DNA of 64,000 nucleotides, from assembly GCF_009192735.1 (NCBI RefSeq), contig NZ_VTFU01000006.1:124001-188000 (forward strand), given 5' to 3'. Below the pieces are notes generated by a model that ran no database searches, was not told the origin of the DNA, and was given only the letters and a program-made list of their open reading frames with translations. The position numbers were made by a program, and so were the translations under genes. Each line of letters opens with the position of its first letter. The stretch's first letter is position 1. Shown piece after piece: positions 54,318 through 64,000 of this stretch. The stretch is from Arthrobacter gandavensis. GTDB lineage: Bacteria > Actinomycetota > Actinomycetes > Actinomycetales > Micrococcaceae.

Positions 54318-55322
54318 ATGACTTCTTCTCTAACAATCGGTTACGCGGCAATGCTCGAGCAGTTCCATCCCACTGAAGCGGTGGCGCTCGCGGAATATGC
54401 TGAAAGCAAAGGTTTTTCCGGAGTCATGGCGGCGGATCATTTCCAGCCCTGGGTGCCGGCACAGGGGCAATCGGCATTTGTCTGGAATGTCTTATCGGCA
54501 CTCGGTGAACGGACCAAGGGCGATATTGGTCCCGGGGTCACCGCTCCCACCTTCCGCTGGCACCCGGCGATGGTGGCGCAGGCGTCAGCAACCCTGGCCG
54601 CCATGTATCCGGGCCGGCACTGGCTGGGGCTGGGATCGGGAGAAGCGCTGAATGAGCACATCACGGCGCAGTACTGGCCCGAAGCCCCCGAGCGGATCAA
54701 CCGGATGTTCGAGGCCATCGAAATCATCAGCAAACTCTTCACCAATTCCCTTGCCGGCAAGGATGTGCGGCACAAGGGTGAGTTCTACAAGATGGAATCC
54801 ACCCGGCTGTGGACCATGCCAGAGGTGGCACCCGAAATCCTGGTCGCCACTGCGGGTCCGGTGACGGCAAAGCGGGCCGGCCGGCACGCCGACGGGCTGA
54901 TTACGGTGGGGGCTCCGCTGGAAAAGATCGGCATGCTCTTTGACCGGTTCGACGCCGGAGCGCGCGAGGCCGGCAAGGACCCGGACACCATGCCCAAGGT
55001 CCTTCAGCTGCATATGAGCTGGGCCGAGACGGACGAGGAAGCCCTGACCAACGCCATGGTGGAATGGCCCAACGGCGGCATGAAGTTCCCCAAGGGCGAC
55101 ATCCGTTCGCCGTTCGAGCTGGAACAGATGGCCAAGCTCGTGCGCCCCGAAGACTTCGAGGGACGGCTGGTGATCTCCAGCGACCCCGACGTGCACCGGG
55201 CCTACATCCAGAAGTTTGTCGATCTGGGCTTTGACCGCATCTACCTGCACAACGTGGGACGGAACCAGCGGGAGTGGATTGATGTCTTCTCCCGCAGCGT
55301 TCTGCCCGCCCTCAGCCGCTGA
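54318..55322 (+). CDS. F420-dependent glucose-6-phosphate dehydrogenase-like LLM oxidoreductase (TIGR03557 type)
   Basis: A 334-residue luciferase-like oxidoreductase close to F420-dependent glucose-6-phosphate dehydrogenase. It starts [20 protein letters not shown] and contains [38 protein letters not shown], and [20 protein letters not shown], the typical F420-binding pattern of this group. It would reduce F420 with a sugar phosphate, or act on another substrate. AGGATG precedes the ATG at 54318. The gene directly precedes cofE. The 289-nt divergent spacer (54029-54317) holds a GGAAA...TTTCC inverted repeat at 54269-54285 that could be an operator. Confidence 0.88.
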
Positions 55323-55326
55323 GCCG

Positions 55327-56289
55327 ATGCGCAGCATCACACTGTTCACGCTTCCAGGTATCGCGGAAATTGCCCCCGGAACGGACCTGACAACGGTCAT
55401 CCTGGCCGCGGCAGCAGCGGCCGCCGGAGCCGATCCTGAGGCTGCGCTGCAACCCGGCGACATCCTGGTGGTCACTTCCAAGATCGTGTCCAAGGCCGAG
55501 GGACGCCAGCTGCCGGCAGAAGACCGGGAGCAGGCCATCACCGAGGAGACCGTTCGGCTCGTCGCCAGCAGGGTTCATCCCGGCGGCGTGACCCGGATCG
55601 TGGAGAACAAGCTGGGCATTGTGGCCGCGGCGGCAGGCGTTGACAACAGCAACACCCCGGCCGGCACGGTACTGCTGCTGCCCGTGGACCCGGATGCGTC
55701 GGCGCGGGCACTGTGTGCTGGGCTGCGGAGGGCTCTGGGCTTCGACGTCGGGGTGGTCATCACCGACACGATGGGCCGGGCCTGGCGCGAGGGGCAGACC
55801 GATGCCGCCATCGGCGCTGCCGGCGTGGATGTCATTACCGACCTGCGCGGAAGCCACGACACCTTTGGGCAGCAGATGAAGGCGACCATGACCGCCGTCG
55901 CGGACGAAATCGCGGCGGCCGCGGACCTCATCAAGGGCAAGACCAGCCAGTGCCCCGTGGCGGTGCTCCGCGGCATGCCGGAGCTGGTGCATCCGCAAGG
56001 GCAGAGGTCCCGAAATGAGGGCGGCTCCAGGAACGACGGCGCCCGGTCGCTGATCCGCCCGGCCGAGCAGGACATGTTCCGGCTGGGCAGCGATGAGGCG
56101 TGGCGTGAGGGCTATGCTGCGGCATGCCGCGAGAACGGGCTGCCGGTTCCGGGGGAGGACCTGCTGCGGGTTCCGGAGGAAGACCCGGCGGATGGTCCGG
56201 GGAAAGACCCGGCGCAGGATCCGGGGAAAGACCCGGCGCAGGACCCGGGGGAAGCACCCGGGAAAGCTCAGGCGGAGGAACCGAAGTAG
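55327..56289 (+). CDS. cofE: Coenzyme F420-0:L-glutamate ligase
   Basis: A 320-residue CofE/FbiB-type ligase that adds glutamate residues to F420-0. [40 protein letters not shown], and [20 protein letters not shown] are the family's metal and GTP-binding blocks. It is the single-domain form without the FbiB nitroreductase fusion. The C-terminal 60 residues are extra and consist of a tandem PGKDPAQD-type repeat that overlaps the end of the convergent transporter gene by 22 nt. It follows the F420-dependent enzyme after 4 nt. Confidence 0.93.
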
Positions 56290-57107
56290 GACTGTTGGGA
56301 ACTGTCCCGGGCGGTTCCTGCTTCCGTTGAAAGGGACAGCGCGATCAGCGGCCGTCCGGTGGCCGGGTGCTCCAGCACGTGGGCTTCCACGCCGTACACC
56401 GCCCGGATCAGCTCGGCGGTCAGGACGGACCGGGGATCACCGGCGGCCACCACGGCGCCTGCGGCCAGGACAATAACGTGGTCACAGTGCGCGGCGGCGT
56501 GCGTCAAATCATGCAGTGCGGCAATAACGGCCATGCCCTCGCCGGCAAGCCGCCGCATCAGGTGCAGCGTGGTGAGCTGGGCATGCGGATCCAGATGGTT
56601 CGTCGGTTCATCAAGGAGCAGCAGCCGGGGTTTCTGGGCCAGAGCACGGGCCAGCTGGACCCGCTGCCGCTGCCCGCCGGACAGTTCGCTGAACAACCGG
56701 TCCGCAAGCTGCGGAACGCCGGCTGAATGCAGGGCCCTGGCCACATCGGCGTCGTCTTCGCTGCCGCCAAATCCCAGCAGCGGCCGGTGCGGCATAGTCC
56801 CCAGCGAGACCACGTCCCGCACGGTCAGGGGCGTATCAGTGCCTGATTCCTGCTCCGCCAGGGCGGCAATGCGGGCGCGTTCGCGGCGCGGCAGCCGCAG
56901 CAGATCACGGCCATCCCACAGCACCGTTCCGCGGCGCACGGGAACGACGCCGGCCAGCGCGCGGAGCAGCGTGGACTTACCGGCACCGTTGGGCCCGACC
57001 AGGGCAGACAAGGCGCCTACGGGAACCGTGCAGTCCACCCCGTCCACCACGAGTTTTCCGCCCAGGGACACGTCCAGGGCTGCGGCCTGAAGCATTGGCG
57101 TGTTCAT
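56268..57107 (-). CDS. ABC transporter ATPase, proposed F420-0 importer
   Basis: A 279-residue ATPase of the FecE/BtuD type: Walker [19 protein letters not shown] (residues 37-54), signature [16 protein letters not shown], Walker [17 protein letters not shown]. In several actinobacteria this three-gene cassette occurs with cofE in genomes that otherwise lack F420 synthesis, and it was therefore proposed to import F420-0. The neighbouring cofE and F420 enzyme here fit that pattern well. The stop overlaps the end of cofE, and the start overlaps the permease stop (ATGA). Confidence 0.9.
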
Positions 57108-58186
57108 GCCCCGCCCTTCCGCCGCGCAAGCACGTATGCGAACACCGGCGCACCGATAACTGCGGTCACCACGCCCACGGGAAGCTCCCGGGGCTCAAAC
57201 GCAAACCGCGCCGCGGTGTCGGCCCAAATCAGGAAGATTGCCCCGAGCAGGGCGGACAGCGGCAGCAGCGAGCGGTGCCCGGGGCCGGCGATCATCCGCA
57301 CGACATGGGGAAACACCAACCCGATAAACCCAATGGATCCGCTGACGGACACCATGGCACCGGTCAGCAGAGCCGTGCCGGCCAGCATGGTCCACCGCAC
57401 CGCCGGCACATTGATGCCCAGAGCCGAGGCGGCGTCGTCGCCGAACGCGAAACCGTCCAGGATCCGGGACGACGCCAGCAGCGGCACGCCCACCACCAGC
57501 AGCGCAGCGGCGGCAATCCCGGCACTGAACCACTGCGCGCCGCTGAGCGATCCGAGCAGCCAGCCCAGGATGTTCCGGTAGGAATCTCCGGTGGCCGTCC
57601 AGAAAATCACCAGGCTGGTCAGTGCGCTGCCCAGCGAGGAGACGGCCACCCCGGCCAAAACGGTGCGCGACGGCGTCAGGCCCCCGGCCAGCCGGGCCAG
57701 CAGCAGGGTTGCCGCCAGGGCCGCCAGCGCGCCGATAAAGGCTGCCACCGGCAGCAGCAGTTGCAGGCCCAGCAGCACCACGCAGACGGCGCCCAGCGAC
57801 GCTCCGGAGGACAGCCCCAGCAGGTAGGGGTCGGCCAGAGCATTGCGGGTCAGCGCCTGCATGACTGCGCCGCTGACCGCCAGCCCGGCGCCCACTGCGG
57901 CCGCTGTCAGCACCCGGGGCAGCCGGAGCTCCCAAATAATGCCGTCATGCAGCACGGACAGCGGGCTTGCGCCGAACCCCAGATGGGCGCCAATGGTGCG
58001 GAAGGCATCAGCAACGCTGATGTCCGCCGGCCCCACCGCGGTTGCCGCCGCGATGGAAAAGACGAGGACGGCGGCAAGGAACACCGCCGCCGGTCCGGTG
58101 CGGAACCGGCGGCGGGGCGGCGGACCCGGCATCTCAAGTGCAGCCGCCCCCGGGAGGGGCCGGGACCGGGTGCGCACAGAGGTCAT
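57104..58186 (-). CDS. ABC transporter permease (FecCD family), proposed F420-0 importer
   Basis: A 360-residue permease with about nine to ten hydrophobic helices. RLPRVLTAAAVGAGLAVSGA, VMQALTRNALADPYLLGLSS, and GSIGFIGLVFPHVVRMIAGP are hallmarks of the FecCD/BtuC type. The ATG at 58186 overlaps the binding-protein stop; a longer frame exists upstream but belongs to that gene. It is the middle gene of the cassette. Confidence 0.92.
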   Translation of the reverse strand: MTSVRTRSRPLPGAAALEMPGPPPRRRFRTGPAAVFLAAVLVFSIAAATAVGPADISVADAFRTIGAHLGFGASPLSVLHDGIIWELRLPRVLTAAAVGAGLAVSGAVMQALTRNALADPYLLGLSSGASLGAVCVVLLGLQLLLPVAAFIGALAALAATLLLARLAGGLTPSRTVLAGVAVSSLGSALTSLVIFWTATGDSYRNILGWLLGSLSGAQWFSAGIAAAALLVVGVPLLASSRILDGFAFGDDAASALGINVPAVRWTMLAGTALLTGAMVSVSGSIGFIGLVFPHVVRMIAGPGHRSLLPLSALLGAIFLIWADTAARFAFEPRELPVGVVTAVIGAPVFAYVLARRKGGA

Positions 58187-59202
58187 GGCAGTGCGGAGAG
58201 CTGCTCGGCGAGGTCTGCCACGGCCTCGGCGTTCCGCACTCCGGCTTCTCCCGCGGCGAAAGGCAGGATGACGTAGCGTTCGTTCACCACTGCGTCCATG
58301 TTTGCCGTAGCCGGCATGGAGGCGAGCAGTTCTTTCTTGGACTCTGCGGTGTTGCGGTCCGAGTCCACGAGGACAATGACGTCCGGATTGGCGGCAACCA
58401 CGGTTTCCCAGCTCAGCGATGCCCAGGACTCTTCGACGTCCGCCGCGATGTTCTCCAGGCCGAGCTCCTCCATCATCATCTGCGGGGCGCCGAGCCCGGC
58501 TCCCGCATACGGGGTGTCCCGTCCCGAGGAGAACCAAAAGGCACTCTGGCCTCCGCCCGCGGGCGTCACGCCGTCGAGCACCCGGCGCTGTTCGGCAATC
58601 AGCGCCGCTGCGGCGTCGGGGGCACCGAAGATGGCTCCGGCCTCGGTGATGTGTGCAAACACGTCCTCAAAACCAAGCTTTCCGGGGATGCCTTCTTCCC
58701 GGCAGGCCGCCGGCGAAACATAGCTGCCGACTCCCAGCGATGCCAGGAAACTGCGCTCGCCGGCGGTGTCGGAGCTCAGGTTCGATTCCCAGCCGGCATA
58801 AATAAAGTCGGGTTCGCGTTCCAGCACCGCTTCTTGGGTGGGCGCCGCGTCGGACAGGACCGGCACCGACGCGGCATCGGCTGCCAGTGATTCGGGGACC
58901 GGGCCGTCGGAGAAAGCGGAGCCAACCACTTTGCTGCCCAGCCCAAGGGCCAGGAGTGTTTCCAGCGCCGTGGATTTGATCGTGACAATCCGTTCGGGCG
59001 GCGCTTCAACGGTCACTTCGGTGCCGCAATTGGTCACAGTCAGGGGATACGACACGGACACGTCCGGCACCCCTGATGCTGCAGCTGAGGTGCTGTTCTC
59101 CGGCACAGGCGCGGAAGGCGTGGACTGGCTGGAACAACCGACAAGTCCGGCGATTCCGGCGGCCAGGAGCATGCCAAGGGCAGGGGATGGGGATCGGTTC
59201 AT
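58183..59202 (-). CDS. ABC transporter substrate-binding lipoprotein, proposed F420-0 binding protein
   Basis: A 339-residue periplasmic-binding family protein of the iron/cobalamin type. The lipobox is GLVGCSS (Cys23). PERIVTIKSTALETLLALGL and GSKVVGSAFSDG, and VVAANPDVIVLVDSDRN are typical of this fold. It opens a three-gene operon with the permease and ATPase, all overlapping by ATGA. Ligand F420-0 is inferred from context and from the cassette's proposed function; iron chelates or corrinoids are the main alternatives. Confidence 0.9.
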   Translation of the reverse strand: MNRSPSPALGMLLAAGIAGLVGCSSQSTPSAPVPENSTSAAASGVPDVSVSYPLTVTNCGTEVTVEAPPERIVTIKSTALETLLALGLGSKVVGSAFSDGPVPESLAADAASVPVLSDAAPTQEAVLEREPDFIYAGWESNLSSDTAGERSFLASLGVGSYVSPAACREEGIPGKLGFEDVFAHITEAGAIFGAPDAAAALIAEQRRVLDGVTPAGGGQSAFWFSSGRDTPYAGAGLGAPQMMMEELGLENIAADVEESWASLSWETVVAANPDVIVLVDSDRNTAESKKELLASMPATANMDAVVNERYVILPFAAGEAGVRNAEAVADLAEQLSALP

Positions 59203-59264
59203 AGTTCCTCGCAGGTGGTGAGCGGAAAACGGAGGGATCTATGGCCCAAATCCAGACCAGTTCT

Positions 59265-59284
59265 ACCGGCCATTTCCGGCCGGT
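59265..59284 (-). promoter_or_regulatory. Leader hairpin of the F420-0 importer operon
   Basis: A 7-bp stem ACCGGCC/GGCCGGT with a 6-nt loop in the predicted 140-nt leader. GATCTAT occurs on both sides of it. No cobalamin box or other known riboswitch core was found. Confidence 0.4.
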
Positions 59285-59347
59285 GATCTATTGAGGAGGC
59301 TAGCACCCCATTGTTTCCGGCATGCGGCGAGGGGCATGAGCGGCGTC

Positions 59348-59376
59348 ATTATCCGCCGGGCCGGCACTGCAAACAA
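59348..59376 (-). promoter_or_regulatory. Promoter of the F420-0 importer operon
   Basis: On the minus strand TTGTTT (59376-59371), a 17-nt spacer and GATAAT (59353-59348) form a good sigma70-type promoter. Transcription would begin near 59341, giving a leader of about 139 nt before the binding-protein ATG. Confidence 0.55.
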
Positions 59377-59382
59377 CAGCCT

Positions 59383-59400
59383 AAAAACCCTTGCGGGTTT
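59383..59400 (-). terminator. Small hairpin with T tract between divergent promoters
   Basis: On the minus strand AAACCC-GCAA-GGGTTT is followed by two more T, the form of an intrinsic terminator. No minus-strand gene precedes it, so it may insulate the F420-0 promoter from antisense transcription or end an unannotated RNA. Confidence 0.45.
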
Positions 59401-59556
59401 GGGCCGGAGCGTCAAGGATGAGCAAACGCCGCGGCAACTGGGTTCAGCCTTTTAACGCGGCGGAAATGTTGGGGAAATGTTCGGCACAGAGACTGATGAC
59501 GGCCCTTCAACAGGCCAATCACGACGGCGGCACCTTTGCCGTAAACAGGAGGCACA
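59401..59556 (+). promoter_or_regulatory. Upstream region of the hydantoinase operon
   Basis: The region before the first gene has an inverted repeat CGCCGCG/CGCGGCG (59427-59433 with 59456-59462), then a tandem GAAATGTTGGG/GAAATGTTCGG (59463-59473 and 59474-59484), and a GGCC/GGCC hairpin near 59500-59515. The repeats look like binding sites for a regulator not encoded here. No certain -10/-35 pair was found. Confidence 0.4.
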
Positions 59557-60405
59557 ATGACAATTATCCGCACAGCCTTGACCCAGACAACCTGGACCGG
59601 CGATGAAGAGTCCATGGTTGCCAAGCACGAGGAGTTTGTCCGCAAGGCGGCTGCCGAGGGTGCCCAGATCATTTGTTTCCAGGAGTTGTTTCACGGACCG
59701 TATTTCGGGATCGTCCAGGACAACAAGTACTACGACTTCGCGCAGAAGGTTCCCGGACCCCTGACGGAACGTTTTTCGAAGCTCGCAGCAGAACACAACA
59801 TGGTGATCATCCTTCCCATTTACGAAGAGGACCAGCCCGGCGTCCTGTACAACACGGCCGCGGTCATCGACTCCGACGGAACCTATTTGGGCAAATACCG
59901 GAAAAACCACATTCCGCACGTTGAAAAGTTCTGGGAGAAGTTCTATTTCCGGCCCGGAAACATGGGCTGGCCGGTCTTTGAGACCGCCGTCGGAACCGTG
60001 GGCCTGACCATTTGTTATGACCGCCACTTCCCTGAGGGCTGGCGCGTGCTGGGACTGAACGGCGCCCAGATCGTCTTCAACCCGAATGCGTCAAAGCCGG
60101 GACTGTCCAACCGGCTGTGGGAGCTGGAACAGCCCACCGCCGCCGCCGCCAACGGCTACTACGTGGTGGTTCCCAACCGGGTGGGCGCCGAAACGAACGA
60201 GTTCGGCGACGAGGCGGTGGACTTCTACGGAACGTCCTACATGGTTGACCCGCAGGGCAACTACGTGGGCGAAATAGGCTCCCGCGACGGCGACGAACTG
60301 ATGATCCGGGACCTGGACATGGACCTGGTCCGCACCGCCCGCAACAACTGGCAGTTCTACCGCGACCGCCGTCCGGATGCCTACGCGCCGATTACGGCCC
60401 CGTAA
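59557..60405 (+). CDS. Nitrilase-superfamily amidohydrolase (beta-ureidopropionase/N-carbamoyl amidase-like)
   Basis: A 282-residue carbon-nitrogen hydrolase. The catalytic triad is Glu43 (ICFQELFHGPYF), Lys116 (LGKYRKNHIPH) and Cys153 (LTICYDRHFPE). The FHGPYFG and HIPH patterns match beta-ureidopropionase and N-carbamoyl-amino acid amidases, which release ammonia and CO2 from N-carbamoyl compounds. The ATG at 59557 has CAGGAGG six bases upstream. It precedes the hydantoinase gene and would act after it. Confidence 0.9.
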   Translation: MTIIRTALTQTTWTGDEESMVAKHEEFVRKAAAEGAQIICFQELFHGPYFGIVQDNKYYDFAQKVPGPLTERFSKLAAEHNMVIILPIYEEDQPGVLYNTAAVIDSDGTYLGKYRKNHIPHVEKFWEKFYFRPGNMGWPVFETAVGTVGLTICYDRHFPEGWRVLGLNGAQIVFNPNASKPGLSNRLWELEQPTAAAANGYYVVVPNRVGAETNEFGDEAVDFYGTSYMVDPQGNYVGEIGSRDGDELMIRDLDMDLVRTARNNWQFYRDRRPDAYAPITAP

Positions 60406-60483
60406 CGTCCCGGCGGCTTCTCCGCTGACGCGTGCCAGAGGTGCTTTGACAGGCCGAGCCTTTATACAGACAAGGATGTCGTT

Positions 60484-61905
60484 TTGAGTACAACACTGAT
60501 CACCGGAGGAACCGTTGTCACCTCCACCGGCCGCAGCGAAGCGGACGTTCTCATTGACGGCGAAACAATCGCAGCGGTGCTCGCACCGGGATCAACACTG
60601 CTGGGACACGATCTTGCCGGCTCCGTGGACACCGTCCTGGATGCCACGGGCAAGTACGTTATCCCCGGCGGCATCGATGCCCACACCCACATGCAGATGC
60701 CGTTTGGCGGCACCGAGGCCTCCGATACGTTTGAAACCGGAACCCGCGCCGCCGCCTGGGGAGGCACGACGACGATTGTCGACTTCGCAATCCAGCGCTA
60801 CGGCGAGCGCGTCATGGACGGGCTGGCGGAGTGGCATGAAAAAGCCGCCGGGGAATGCGCCATCGATTACGGATTCCACCAGATCGTGGGGGACGTTAAT
60901 GACGACTCCCTGAAGGCAATGGCGGGGCTCATCGACGAGGGTGTCTCCAGCTACAAACTGTTCATGGCCTATCCGGGCGTTTTCTACAGCGACGACGCCC
61001 AGATCTACAAGGCCATGCGCGTCGGCGCCGACACCGGGCTGATGACGATGATGCACGCCGAGAATGGCCCGGCGATCGACGCCATGGTCAGTGAACTGCT
61101 GGCGCAGGGCAAAACCGATCCGTACTACCACGGGGTGGCGCGGGCCTGGCAGATGGAGGAGGAAGCCACCCACCGGGCCATCATGCTGGCGAACCTCACC
61201 GGTGCGCCCCTGTACGTGGTGCACGTTTCCGCGAAGCAGGCCGTGGAGCAGCTGGCCGCCGCCCGCGACAACGGACAGAACGTCTTTGGTGAAACATGCC
61301 CGCAGTATCTGTACATGAGCCTGGAGGACCAGCTCGGCGCCGAAGGCTTTGAGGGCGCCAAGTACGTCTGTTCCACGCCGCTGCGCTCCAAGCACGAACA
61401 CCACCAGGACCACATGTGGCAGTCGCTGCGCACCAACGACATCCAGATGGTGGCCACCGACCACTGCCCGTTCTGCATGAAGGGGCAAAAGGACATGGGG
61501 GTGGGGGACTTCTCCAAGATCCCCAACGGCATCGGCTCGGTGGAACACCGCCTGGACCTGATGTACCAGGGAGTGGTGGACGGCAAGATCACGCTCGAGC
61601 GCTGGGTGGAGATCACCAGCACGACGCCGGCCCGCATGTTCGGCATGTACGGCACCAAGGGCGTGATCGCACCGGGAGCGGACGCCGACGTCGTCATCTA
61701 TGACCCGGCGGGCCACACCTCGATCGGGCTGGAAAAAACCCACCACATGAACATGGACTACTCCGCATGGGAGGGCTACGAGATTGACGGGCACGTTGAC
61801 ACCGTGCTGTCCCGCGGCCGAATCCTCATCAATGACAACGAATACCTCGGGACCAAGAGCCACGGCCGCTACATCCGCCGTGCCCCGAGCCAGTACCTGA
61901 TCTAG
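60484..61905 (+). CDS. hydA: Dihydropyrimidinase/D-hydantoinase
   Basis: A 473-residue cyclic amidohydrolase. Metal ligands are His67 and His69 (IDAHTHMQ), the carboxylated Lys158 (SSYKLFMAYPG), His191 (HAENG), His247 (VVHVSAKQA) and Asp326 (VATDHCPF). It opens dihydrouracil, dihydrothymine or hydantoins to N-carbamoyl compounds, the substrates for the preceding amidase. It starts with TTG at 60484, with AAGGATG ending six bases before. The next gene follows after 11 nt. Confidence 0.95.
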   Translation: MSTTLITGGTVVTSTGRSEADVLIDGETIAAVLAPGSTLLGHDLAGSVDTVLDATGKYVIPGGIDAHTHMQMPFGGTEASDTFETGTRAAAWGGTTTIVDFAIQRYGERVMDGLAEWHEKAAGECAIDYGFHQIVGDVNDDSLKAMAGLIDEGVSSYKLFMAYPGVFYSDDAQIYKAMRVGADTGLMTMMHAENGPAIDAMVSELLAQGKTDPYYHGVARAWQMEEEATHRAIMLANLTGAPLYVVHVSAKQAVEQLAAARDNGQNVFGETCPQYLYMSLEDQLGAEGFEGAKYVCSTPLRSKHEHHQDHMWQSLRTNDIQMVATDHCPFCMKGQKDMGVGDFSKIPNGIGSVEHRLDLMYQGVVDGKITLERWVEITSTTPARMFGMYGTKGVIAPGADADVVIYDPAGHTSIGLEKTHHMNMDYSAWEGYEIDGHVDTVLSRGRILINDNEYLGTKSHGRYIRRAPSQYLI

Positions 61906-61916
61906 GAGCGGACAGC

Positions 61917-62933
61917 ATGGATTTTGGAGCAGTACTTCAGTGCAATCCGCCCGCCGCACGCACGGTGGCGCTCGCCAAGAGGGCCGAGGAGTTCGGGTTC
62001 GACTACGTCTGGACCTTTGACTCGCACATCCTGTGGCAGGAACCGTACGTCATTTACAGCCAGATCCTGGCCGAGACCCAGAACATCAAGGTGGGTCCCA
62101 TGGTCACCAACCCGGCCACCCGGGACTGGACCGTCACCGCGTCCACCTACGCCACCCTGAACTCGATGTACGGCAACCGGACCGTGTGCGGGATCGGCCG
62201 CGGCGACTCGGCGCTGCGCGTCAGCAACGGCAAGCCCACCACCCTGAAGACCCTTCGGGAGTCAATTCACGTGATTCGTGAGCTGGCGAACTCCCGCCCG
62301 GTGGAATACAACGGAGCCACCATCCAGTTCCCGTGGAGCAAGGGCTCCGAGCTGGAAATGTGGGTGGCCGCCTACGGTCCGCTCGCGCTAAAGCTGACCG
62401 GCGAAGTGGGCGACGGCTTCATCCTGCAGCTGGCGGACGTGGATATCGCCGAATGGATGATCGCCGCTGTGCGGTCGGCCGCGGCTGCCGCCGGGCGTGA
62501 CCCCATGGCCATCAAATTCTGTGTGGCAGCACCCATGTACATAGGGGATGACTGGGAGCACATGCGGGACCAGTGCCGCTGGTTCGGCGGCATGGTGGGC
62601 AACCATATTGCCGACATCGTGGCCAAGTACGGGACGGACTCCCCGGTGCCGCAGGCGCTCACCGACTACATCGCCGGCAGGGAAGGCTACGACTACAACG
62701 AGCACGGCCGGGCGGGCAACACGCACACAGCCTTTGTGCCGGACGAGATTGTGGACCGTTTCTGCCTGATGGGCACGGCGGAGCAGCACATCGAAAAGCT
62801 CGAAAAACTCAAGGCCCTCGGCGTAACCCAGTTCGCCGGGTATCTCCAGCATGACAACAAGGAGGAAACCCTGCGGGTCTACGGCGAGAGCGTCATTCCG
62901 GCACTGCACGAGACCGTGAGCGCAACGGCATGA
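61917..62933 (+). CDS. LLM-class flavin/F420-dependent oxidoreductase (TIGR03842-like)
   Basis: A 338-residue luciferase-like (alpha/beta)8 oxidoreductase resembling methylene-tetrahydromethanopterin reductase relatives. RAEEFGFDYVWTFDSHILWQ, KVGPMVTNPATRDWTVTAST, and TVCGIGRGDSALR are family features. Members use F420 or FMN. Its place between hydantoinase and the transporter, with no dihydropyrimidine dehydrogenase nearby, suggests a redox step on a pyrimidine or hydantoin. The reaction itself is unknown. Its stop overlaps the permease start (ATGA). Confidence 0.88.
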   Translation: MDFGAVLQCNPPAARTVALAKRAEEFGFDYVWTFDSHILWQEPYVIYSQILAETQNIKVGPMVTNPATRDWTVTASTYATLNSMYGNRTVCGIGRGDSALRVSNGKPTTLKTLRESIHVIRELANSRPVEYNGATIQFPWSKGSELEMWVAAYGPLALKLTGEVGDGFILQLADVDIAEWMIAAVRSAAAAAGRDPMAIKFCVAAPMYIGDDWEHMRDQCRWFGGMVGNHIADIVAKYGTDSPVPQALTDYIAGREGYDYNEHGRAGNTHTAFVPDEIVDRFCLMGTAEQHIEKLEKLKALGVTQFAGYLQHDNKEETLRVYGESVIPALHETVSATA

Positions 62934-63820
62934 GCCGGGCCGGAACCAGGACACCGCCGGCGGCTCGGATCGGCTGGGCCGCCGCCGGCGTCCTGGTTCC
63001 GGTCCTGCTGTGGGAAGCGTATAAGTTTGCCGGTCCCGACGACGGCGTAAGCCTGGGGAGCATGCCGCTCCTGCCGCGCACCACTGACCTTGCCATGCCC
63101 CACGTCTGGACCATGCTCGCAAGGTTGGCGGAACCGGTCACCTCCGCCGCCGGGGCGCCGCCCCTGTGGCTGGCCGTCCTGCAAGCGGCGGCCTTCACAC
63201 TGGGGATCGCGGCAGTGGGCTGGATCATCGGAGTCCTGGTGGGCCTGGGCCTGGCCATGGTCATGCAGCGGTTCCGGTCCGCCGGTTCCGCCCTGCTGCC
63301 GTGGATCATCCTGAGCCAAACCGTTCCCCTGATCGCTATCGCTCCGCTGGTCCGCCGCTGGGGATCCCAACTGGAGATCGGCTCCTTCAGCTGGGAGAAC
63401 TGGATGTCGGTGGCCGTTATCGCCTCCTATCTGGCCTTCTTTCCGGTGGCGATCGGTGCCCTGCGGGGATTCGCTTCTCCGCAGGTCAGCCATTTGGACC
63501 TCATGCACAGCTATTCGGTGGGATGGTGGCGCAGTTTCCTTTTCCTGCGGCTGCCGGCCAGCATTCCCTATCTGCTGCCGGCGCTTCGCCTGGCTGCCGC
63601 CAACGCGGTGATCGGCGCCGTCGTGGCCGAAGTGTCGATCGGCCTCAAGGGCGGGATCGGCCGAATGATCGTGGAATATGCCGCCGCCGCCGGCGGTGAC
63701 CCGGGCAAACCCTGGGCACCCATCTTTGGAGCCGTCCTGCTGGGCCTGGCTGCAGTCTCCGCCACCACAGTCCTGGGACTTTTCCTGCACCGCTACCGCC
63801 GAGGAGAGCAAGCAGCATGA
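62930..63820 (+). CDS. ABC transporter permease (SsuC/TauC-like)
   Basis: A 296-residue permease with six or so helices and the cytoplasmic EAA-like loop GALRGFASPQVSHLDLMHSY. It resembles permeases for pyrimidine precursors, sulfonates or nitrate. The start overlaps the LLM gene, and its stop overlaps the ATPase start (ATGA). It probably imports the operon's substrate, such as uracil, a dihydropyrimidine or a hydantoin. Confidence 0.9.
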   Translation: MSRAGTRTPPAARIGWAAAGVLVPVLLWEAYKFAGPDDGVSLGSMPLLPRTTDLAMPHVWTMLARLAEPVTSAAGAPPLWLAVLQAAAFTLGIAAVGWIIGVLVGLGLAMVMQRFRSAGSALLPWIILSQTVPLIAIAPLVRRWGSQLEIGSFSWENWMSVAVIASYLAFFPVAIGALRGFASPQVSHLDLMHSYSVGWWRSFLFLRLPASIPYLLPALRLAAANAVIGAVVAEVSIGLKGGIGRMIVEYAAAAGGDPGKPWAPIFGAVLLGLAAVSATTVLGLFLHRYRRGEQAA

Positions 63821-64000
63821 ACGGATCAACAGAAGCAGCCTCGCCGGCAGAATTGGCAACGCAGCAACCGGCGGTCGAAGTACGGGACGTCCACCGGGTC
63901 TTCACCACCGGCAAAGGTTCCGTCACGGCCCTCGAGGCGGCCAACCTGACGGTGGCGCCGGGAGAGTTTGTGTCACTCATCGGACCGTCGGGCTGCGGCA
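63817..64000 (+). CDS. ABC transporter ATP-binding protein (3' end outside window)
   Basis: The first 61 residues of an ATPase, ending inside the Walker A motif (FVSLIGPSGCG). VRDVHRVFTTGKGSVTALEA and LTVAPGEF are the usual leading strands. It overlaps the permease gene by four bases and is the partner subunit. A substrate-binding protein is expected further downstream. Confidence 0.9.
   Translation, partial: MNGSTEAASPAELATQQPAVEVRDVHRVFTTGKGSVTALEAANLTVAPGEFVSLIGPSGCG

Follow-up and report, generated by a model that had tools for sequence, protein, structure and literature searches.

A 64,000-nucleotide stretch of Arthrobacter gandavensis DNA (assembly GCF_009192735.1, contig NZ_VTFU01000006.1, positions 124,001 to 188,000 of the forward strand; hereafter the window, to which all plain coordinates refer) was analyzed in this study. 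It contains an operon at 59557-63820 that probably encodes reductive pyrimidine degradation, in which an LLM (luciferase-fold) protein of family TIGR03842 would replace the unrelated iron-sulfur enzyme PreTA/PydA/DPD at the first step. The genomic evidence presented here indicates that this LLM protein is likely a 5,6-reductase of pyrimidines that depends on the rare cofactor F420 (as F420H2) and has uracil or thymine as its substrate. We lean, with clearly less confidence, towards a broader proposal: TIGR03842 may be a family of F420H2:uracil oxidoreductases that replaces dihydropyrimidine dehydrogenase in much of the Actinomycetota and in some Rhodobacterales, and in some hosts, including this one, F420 may be a vitamin scavenged largely for this step (F420-0 import and CofE, with no CofG, CofH or CofD).

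Operon content and search for known entry enzymes

The open reading frame (ORF) list and family scans identified four adjoining, tightly spaced plus-strand genes, with the LLM gene starting 11 bases past the dihydropyrimidinase gene and the permease gene overlapping the LLM gene by 4 bases:

59557..60405, plus strand, CN-hydrolase amidase (PF00795, 225 bits), probable beta-ureidopropionase (N-carbamoyl-beta-alanine amidohydrolase), pathway step 3
60484..61905, plus strand, dihydropyrimidinase/D-hydantoinase (TIGR02033, 544 bits, cut-off 393; TTG start in the ORF list), pathway step 2
61917..62933, plus strand, LLM protein (TIGR03842, 595 bits, cut-off 295), proposed to act in pathway step 1 as an F420H2-dependent uracil/thymine reductase
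62930..63820, plus strand, ABC importer permease (PF00528), first gene of an NMT1/THI5-type importer

An earlier reading made from the letters of the window (the sequence-only reading) had described an amidase and a hydantoinase covering steps two and three of the pathway, followed by an ABC importer, and this description is confirmed by both gene content and spacing. Among solved proteins, the closest relatives of the amidase are 2vhh (CG3027-PA, 198 bits), which we take to be a beta-alanine synthase, and the beta-ureidopropionases 8pt4 and 6ftq (180 bits); the N-carbamyl-D-amino acid amidohydrolase 1erz reaches 93 bits in the same comparison. The amidase falls under every NCBIfam cut-off, its top family being N-carbamoylputrescine amidase (246 versus 410 bits). 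D-hydantoinases and dihydropyrimidinases are the top solved relatives of the dihydropyrimidinase.

The absence of a visible PydA or DPD, which had first drawn attention to the LLM gene, extends from the operon to the genome. In the assembly, rated 100% complete, PreA (NF006183) gave zero matches at 1e-40, and DHO_dh matched twice, once strongly, in a quinone-type PyrD, and once weakly over a short stretch. RutA (TIGR03612) was not found over its cut-off in this genome (best 150.6 versus 498.3 bits, from a gene elsewhere), and therefore neither known entry enzyme was found. The LLM protein itself matches PF00296 alone in Pfam and has no DHO_dh/PreA domain, and RutA is not among the 25 families listed for it out of 27 that match.

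In the proposed pathway, the importer would take up a pyrimidine, and the LLM protein would bind F420H2 and uracil or thymine together in a ternary complex. The deazaflavin would donate a hydride from its C5 to pyrimidine C6, and protonation of pyrimidine C5 would complete the reduction to dihydrouracil. The dihydropyrimidinase would then open the ring and the amidase would free beta-alanine, CO2 and ammonia, as expected from their families. The redox potential of F420H2 lies below that of NADPH, and the reduction of uracil is therefore feasible.

Fold and conserved residues of the LLM protein

An AlphaFold2 model of the LLM protein, generated from 51 sequences, has a mean pLDDT of 92. In VIA-align 2 Mer, the F420-dependent methylenetetrahydromethanopterin reductase, ranks first (Z 35.6, 30% identity), and the top 15 entries are all F420 enzymes (Z 29.1-35.6), followed by the monooxygenase 2i7g (Z 27.9) and by RutA with uracil (Z 25.0). 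The first 22 chains retrieved by Foldseek are all F420 enzymes as well, and so are the eight best entries in a profile search of solved proteins, again with Mer first (177 bits, profile A3).

Conservation was counted over 54 LLM sequences aligned to Mer. D97, which corresponds to Mer Asp96, and Q171, which corresponds to a Mer position that we call carboxamide position C, are invariant in all 54 sequences, and the same is true of R95, W222, F223, N229, H230, Y258, D259, Y260 and H263. In a published model (PMC11094777), Asp96 is in contact with the pyrimidine moiety of the pterin, and residue 178 of M. jannaschii Mer is given as Gln in that paper; the PDB-derived sequence has Asn there by our count, hence the neutral label for position C. 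This pattern fits an F420 reductase that may have kept a pyrimidine-ring site while its chemistry changed, with the placement of the substrate in the model being one that we infer. A methylenetetrahydropterin reductase was considered and rejected as less likely, because Glu6, the catalytic proton donor of Mer according to PMC11094777, is missing and no one-carbon gene is present among the named operon genes.

Genomic associations and competing readings

A survey of 296 Actinomycetota genomes spread over the phylum, the A. gandavensis genome included, identified TIGR03842 over its cut-off in 62 genomes, cofE in 170, dihydropyrimidinase in 89, cofH in 145 and PreA in two. Dihydropyrimidinase is present in 61 of the 62 genomes with the LLM gene versus 28 of the 234 without it (Fisher 4e-40), and cofE in 60/62 versus 110/234 (1.5e-14); among cofE-containing genomes alone, dihydropyrimidinase accompanies the LLM gene in 59/60 versus 15/110 (3e-30), and all these p-values are descriptive and overstate independence, as the genomes share ancestry. 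For cofH the figures are 48/62 versus 97/234. Thirteen of the 28 genomes with dihydropyrimidinase and no LLM gene have no cofE. The LLM and dihydropyrimidinase genes lie at most 20 kb apart in 52 of the 62 genomes. In the remaining ten, the dihydropyrimidinase gene is 51 kb off in one, far away in another and missing from the LLM contig in eight, among them one genome in which no match exceeds the cut-off anywhere. One survey genome without the LLM gene (G196) carries hydA, Zn-hydrolase, PreA and a PreT-like gene (glutamate synthase small subunit family) side by side.

Closer neighborhoods were compared in 80 related loci, the best 80 of 589 confirmed candidates from named genomes; this set is biased towards close relatives (74-88% identity), and gene presence was scored as homology matches at set identity thresholds (27% for the aminotransferase). 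The dihydropyrimidinase gene lies immediately 5' of the LLM gene in 80/80 loci, the amidase occurs in 78, the importer binding protein in 57 and a class-III aminotransferase-like gene in 59, the 21 loci without an aminotransferase match including some that are cut short. One or more genes for F420 biosynthesis or import are present in 51 of the 80 loci, and in 41 of the 58 that exceed 20 kb; as a rough expectation, an F420 gene cluster would fall within 20 kb in a 3.7-Mb genome by chance in about a few per cent of cases. The survey also provided 18 LLM loci that are more distant, with LLM identity down to 45%. Dihydropyrimidinase is present in 16 of them, and the other components vary: both CN and Zn hydrolases occur as the amidase, and the importer is of either the ABC or the NCS1 symporter type. 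On the same strand after the LLM gene of Arthrobacter sp. MYb23 (L014 9681-18000) are homologues of Zn-hydrolase, a TIGR03557-like LLM, cofD, cofE, cofG and cofH, a cluster that is possibly an actinobacterial counterpart of the Leisingera cassette described below.

Across 102 LLM loci, queries for PreA, PreT and a hydantoin-type racemase matched in none, in a set that held no known carrier as positive control. The RutR query recovered its two source loci, and the D-carbamoylase queries gave 91 matches each, all at the position of the window-type amidase and at 25-32% identity.

Plasmids of Rhodobacterales allow the LLM gene to be compared with PreA in similar surroundings. A plasmid of Leisingera caerulea encodes cofG-cofH-cofD-cofC-cofE-npdG-LLM, so that the LLM gene is terminal in a full F420-synthesis operon, and divergent beside this cassette are an NCS1 symporter, hydA, a Zn-hydrolase, an omega-aminotransferase and both transhydrogenase subunits; the shorter stretch of L. 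aquaemixtae is consistent with this arrangement over its length. The NAD(P) transhydrogenase genes of the Leisingera F420/npdG cluster lie at L006 11245-14271 and L007 3254-6271. Together with npdG, the transhydrogenase suggests a dedicated supply of F420H2 from NADPH, and the cluster as a whole might form a self-contained chain running from NADPH through F420H2, reduced pyrimidine and beta-alanine to transamination. Plasmids of Qingshengfaniella and Roseinatronobacter carry PreT-PreA, a RutR-like regulator, Zn-hydrolase, hydA and an importer, and the RutR-like regulator that adjoins the Leisingera LLM gene is 47% identical to the regulator beside Qingshengfaniella preA.

Record by record, the plasmid set comprised 50 dihydropyrimidinase records at E 1e-120 (79 at 1e-100, and 980 at 1e-20, including allantoinases and dihydroorotases), and the PreA/LLM check covered these 50. 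Thirty-seven carry PreA, at a hydA-PreA distance of no more than 14 kb by coordinates, and ten, all from Leisingera, carry the LLM gene and no PreA; many records come from near-identical strains, and the 37 and 10 are not independent events. The remaining three (Sulfitobacter, Aminobacter and Rhizobium) have neither PreA nor LLM, and all contain an N-carbamoyl-D-amino-acid hydrolase, a mark of hydantoin use. The overlap between 61 plasmid records with PreA and 12 with LLM is zero.

A third cassette, on a plasmid of Paracoccus alcaliphilus (L178 12587-22447), has the order cofG-H-D-C-E-npdG-LLM. The genes directly after it encode an NMT1/THI5-type importer that resembles the one in the window, and the LLM protein of the cassette shows 83% identity. 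A gene for a CbiZ-type adenosylcobinamide amidohydrolase is also found in this stretch. Paracoccus strengthens the F420 link: a full F420 operon ends in the LLM gene in 3/3 proteobacterial neighborhoods inspected.

Such operons, together with the co-occurrence with cofE, suggest indirectly that the LLM protein may use F420. The proposal of the sequence-only reading, an F420H2-dependent uracil reductase, thus gains support at the level of genomics, through the failure to find PreA and RutA, the association of the LLM gene with dihydropyrimidinase and cofE, the F420 operons and the RutR-like neighbor.

Several observations weigh against a uracil or thymine reductase. In the protein itself, all 54 sequences have V, T or C where Mer has its proton donor Glu6, and Foldseek places the F420 enzyme KvPepI (rank 42) beneath the FMN enzyme SfnG (rank 23). 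The Leisingera regulator falls under the RutR cut-off (TIGR03613, 194 versus 368 bits), although RutR is its best family; the regulators beside preA likewise fall under it (227 and 218 versus 368). The PreA result for Leisingera and Paracoccus is confined to plasmids, and in Actinomycetota the exclusion of PreA and LLM rests on two PreA genomes and is not significant. Of the 28 survey genomes with dihydropyrimidinase and no LLM gene, 27 also have no PreA over the cut-off; dihydropyrimidinase therefore has other uses and is no proof of uracil catabolism. Among LLM-containing survey genomes, G115 and G232 have no cofE and G194 has no dihydropyrimidinase over the cut-off, all three assemblies being fragmented, and the covered stretch is devoid of F420 genes in 29 of the 80 related loci. 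No dihydropyrimidinase is annotated within 37 kb around the P. alcaliphilus LLM cassette, which weakens the rule that the LLM gene always travels with hydA. As the record-by-record match in Leisingera and the exception in Paracoccus pull in opposite ways, our overall estimate was left unchanged.

The best-surviving alternative keeps an F420H2-dependent reductase at the same position and assumes a different unsaturated N-heterocycle as substrate, such as a methylated or otherwise modified pyrimidine, the ring of which the dihydropyrimidinase would then open. Dihydropyrimidinases are broad, which favors such a substrate, as does an importer of the NMT1/THI5 group. A parallel is offered by Chloroflexota, for which PMC12507026 proposes an F420 LLM protein reducing the purine-derived yanthine. 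We nevertheless consider another heterocycle unlikely, given the probable beta-ureidopropionase type of the amidase, the omega-aminotransferase and RutR-like regulator in Leisingera, and the two inspected Rhodobacterales PreA clusters that are otherwise alike.

A second alternative would place the LLM protein downstream, in the manner of RutE, to reduce the malonate semialdehyde that the aminotransferase produces from beta-alanine, with another enzyme in charge of step one. This role would suit the class-III aminotransferase-like genes of the related loci and the fact that F420 LLM enzymes act on carbonyls too (title of 1rhc), but it would leave step one without an enzyme in a genome rated 100% complete. 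No such extra reductase is annotated in the two inspected Rhodobacterales PreA clusters, and the LLM gene directly follows hydA in every related locus, including the 21 without an aminotransferase match, so that a RutE-like function appears quite improbable.

The sequence-only reading had also raised the oxidation of a hydantoin ring, and a function of the LLM protein in this reaction or otherwise in hydantoin use is now disfavored and appears very improbable. Dihydropyrimidinases and D-hydantoinases do form one family, but the N-carbamoyl-D-amino-acid hydrolase marks 3/3 plasmid hydA clusters that have neither PreA nor LLM, the racemase is found in 0/102 LLM loci, and D-carbamoylase queries match the window-type amidase only; among solved proteins, the nearest relatives of the window amidase are beta-ureidopropionases. 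Least probable of all, to the point of being nearly negligible, is an oxidative ring opening with FMNH2 and oxygen as in RutA, which has in its favor the common LLM superfamily and the alignment with uracil-bound RutA at Z 25, but would make the dihydropyrimidinase needless, fits the fold less well than F420 enzymes do (Z 29-36) and disagrees with the cofE co-occurrence and the F420 operons of Leisingera and Paracoccus. RutA-like oxidation, hydantoin oxidation and malonate semialdehyde reduction were accordingly all rejected as less likely.

Proposed F420 supply, flanking genes and known systems

The F420H2-dependent pyrimidine reductase that we favor would need a source of F420, and the genes next to the operon could provide one. 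The importer of the operon continues across the end of the window into a flanking stretch (L003), and the contig ends shortly beyond its binding-protein gene. The flanking features are:

59203..59556, divergent intergenic region of 354 bases, common to the F420-0 importer operon (minus strand) and the pyrimidine operon (plus strand)
58183..59202, minus strand, substrate-binding protein of an F420-0 ABC importer (TIGR03868, 417 versus 392 bits; PF01497)
57104..58201, minus strand, FecCD permease of the F420-0 ABC importer (PF01032, 297 bits; start chosen here, the listed ORF reaching to 58537)
56268..57107, minus strand, ATPase of the F420-0 ABC importer (TIGR03873-like, 334 bits, under the cut-off of 372)
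55327..56289, plus strand, cofE, F420-0:L-glutamate ligase (TIGR01916, 213 versus 181 bits; start chosen here, the listed ORF running from 55216)
54318..55322, plus strand, TIGR03557 LLM of the F420-dependent sugar-phosphate dehydrogenase kind (272 versus 210 bits; start chosen here, the listed ORF running from 54174)
63817..64000, plus strand, 5' part of the ABC ATPase, which crosses the window end (L003 7818-8666)
L003 8663-9490, second permease, beyond the window
L003 9569-10711, NMT1/THI5-like binding protein (PF09084, 131.6 bits), beyond the window

The F420 salvage island that had been noticed beside the operon is borne out by cofE, the F420-0 binding protein and the TIGR03557 LLM, all of which score over their cut-offs. 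The TIGR03557 protein scores higher with TIGR03885, a family called FMN-dependent (303 bits, under the cut-off of 399). In the A. gandavensis genome, CofG and CofH gave zero matches at E 0.001 and CofD only a 20-bit fragment; the host is therefore probably unable to make F420 by the known route and would have to import F420-0. With an importer and cofE and no cofG, cofH or cofD found, it looks like an F420-0 scavenger, a feature that is new relative to the sequence-only reading. F420-0 would enter via the divergent ABC importer and be glutamylated by CofE, and the TIGR03557 enzyme would reduce the cofactor. Because NpdG was not found over its cut-off in this genome (37 versus 150 bits), the TIGR03557 enzyme is the likely source of F420H2, a guess from gene position.

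In fourteen survey genomes with the LLM gene, no cofH match exceeds the cut-off. Weaker matches are present in four of them; the rest include A. gandavensis and the few-contig assemblies G206 and G237, which do carry cofE, the latter two being further candidates for F420 scavenging.

Thirteen LLM-family matches were identified in the A. gandavensis genome, and two of them, the TIGR03842 and TIGR03557 proteins, score above the threshold for an F420-type family. A further ten were scanned over the matched stretch rather than the whole protein, with the thirteenth match left out; six of these ten pass a family cut-off (four of families called FMN-dependent, two of MsnO8) and two pass none. Two of the ten (L133 and L134; C4 and C5) fall under the cut-off of the F420 family TIGR03619 (126 and 125 versus 167 bits).

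NCBI lists TIGR03842 only as a hypothetical F420 oxidoreductase, a hypothetical equivalog with no function assigned, and the reaction proposed here, if true, would give this family its first function. We recognized no report of an F420-dependent uracil reductase and no mention of TIGR03842 in the open-licence PubMed Central literature, a prior report elsewhere being possible, and the portion of the 2021 F420 review (PMC8498797) at hand mentions neither uracil nor salvage. NAD(P)H or ferredoxin serves as electron donor for the known entry enzymes of uracil reduction (PMC7332683); F420H2 would join these donors, and F420 would become linked to primary nitrogen catabolism in aerobic bacteria. For Mycobacterium smegmatis, a transcriptome study reports that nitrogen limitation induces a reductive uracil pathway whose genes were not all identified (PMC4617892), and the LLM protein could fill a step in such a pathway. 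The scavenging of F420-0 suggests a vitamin-like exchange of F420 between microbes.

Among known systems, the Pyd pathway (PreTA/PydA, DPD) is similar in its dihydropyrimidinase, its amidase of the beta-ureidopropionase type (to which the amidase here probably belongs), the aminotransferase of some clusters, the kinds of its importers and, in Leisingera, the RutR-like regulator. It differs at step one, which is catalyzed by FMN/Fe-S PreA together with PreT in that pathway and would be catalyzed here by an LLM barrel, probably with F420H2. Mer (8qpm, 1z69) is the closest relative in fold and sequence and has in common with the LLM protein the VTNP region of the cis-peptide, Asp96 and position C. 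In contrast, Mer has Glu6 where the LLM proteins have V, T or C, the LLM-invariant W222, F223, N229, H230, Y258, D259, Y260 and H263 are not kept in the aligned Mer, and the named operon genes here include zero one-carbon genes. RutA (TIGR03612), an FMN-dependent pyrimidine monooxygenase, belongs to the same LLM superfamily and is known to act on a pyrimidine, but it aligns at a Z of only 25 and follows an oxidative route, whereas the route proposed here is reductive. A parallel in design may be found in the uric acid clusters of Chloroflexota, in which, according to a 2025 paper (PMC12507026), a putative F420-type LLM stands in place of YgfK. That yanthine reductase would likewise be an F420 LLM replacing a PydA/YgfK-type reductase ahead of a ring-opening hydrolase, although it serves a purine pathway in another phylum.

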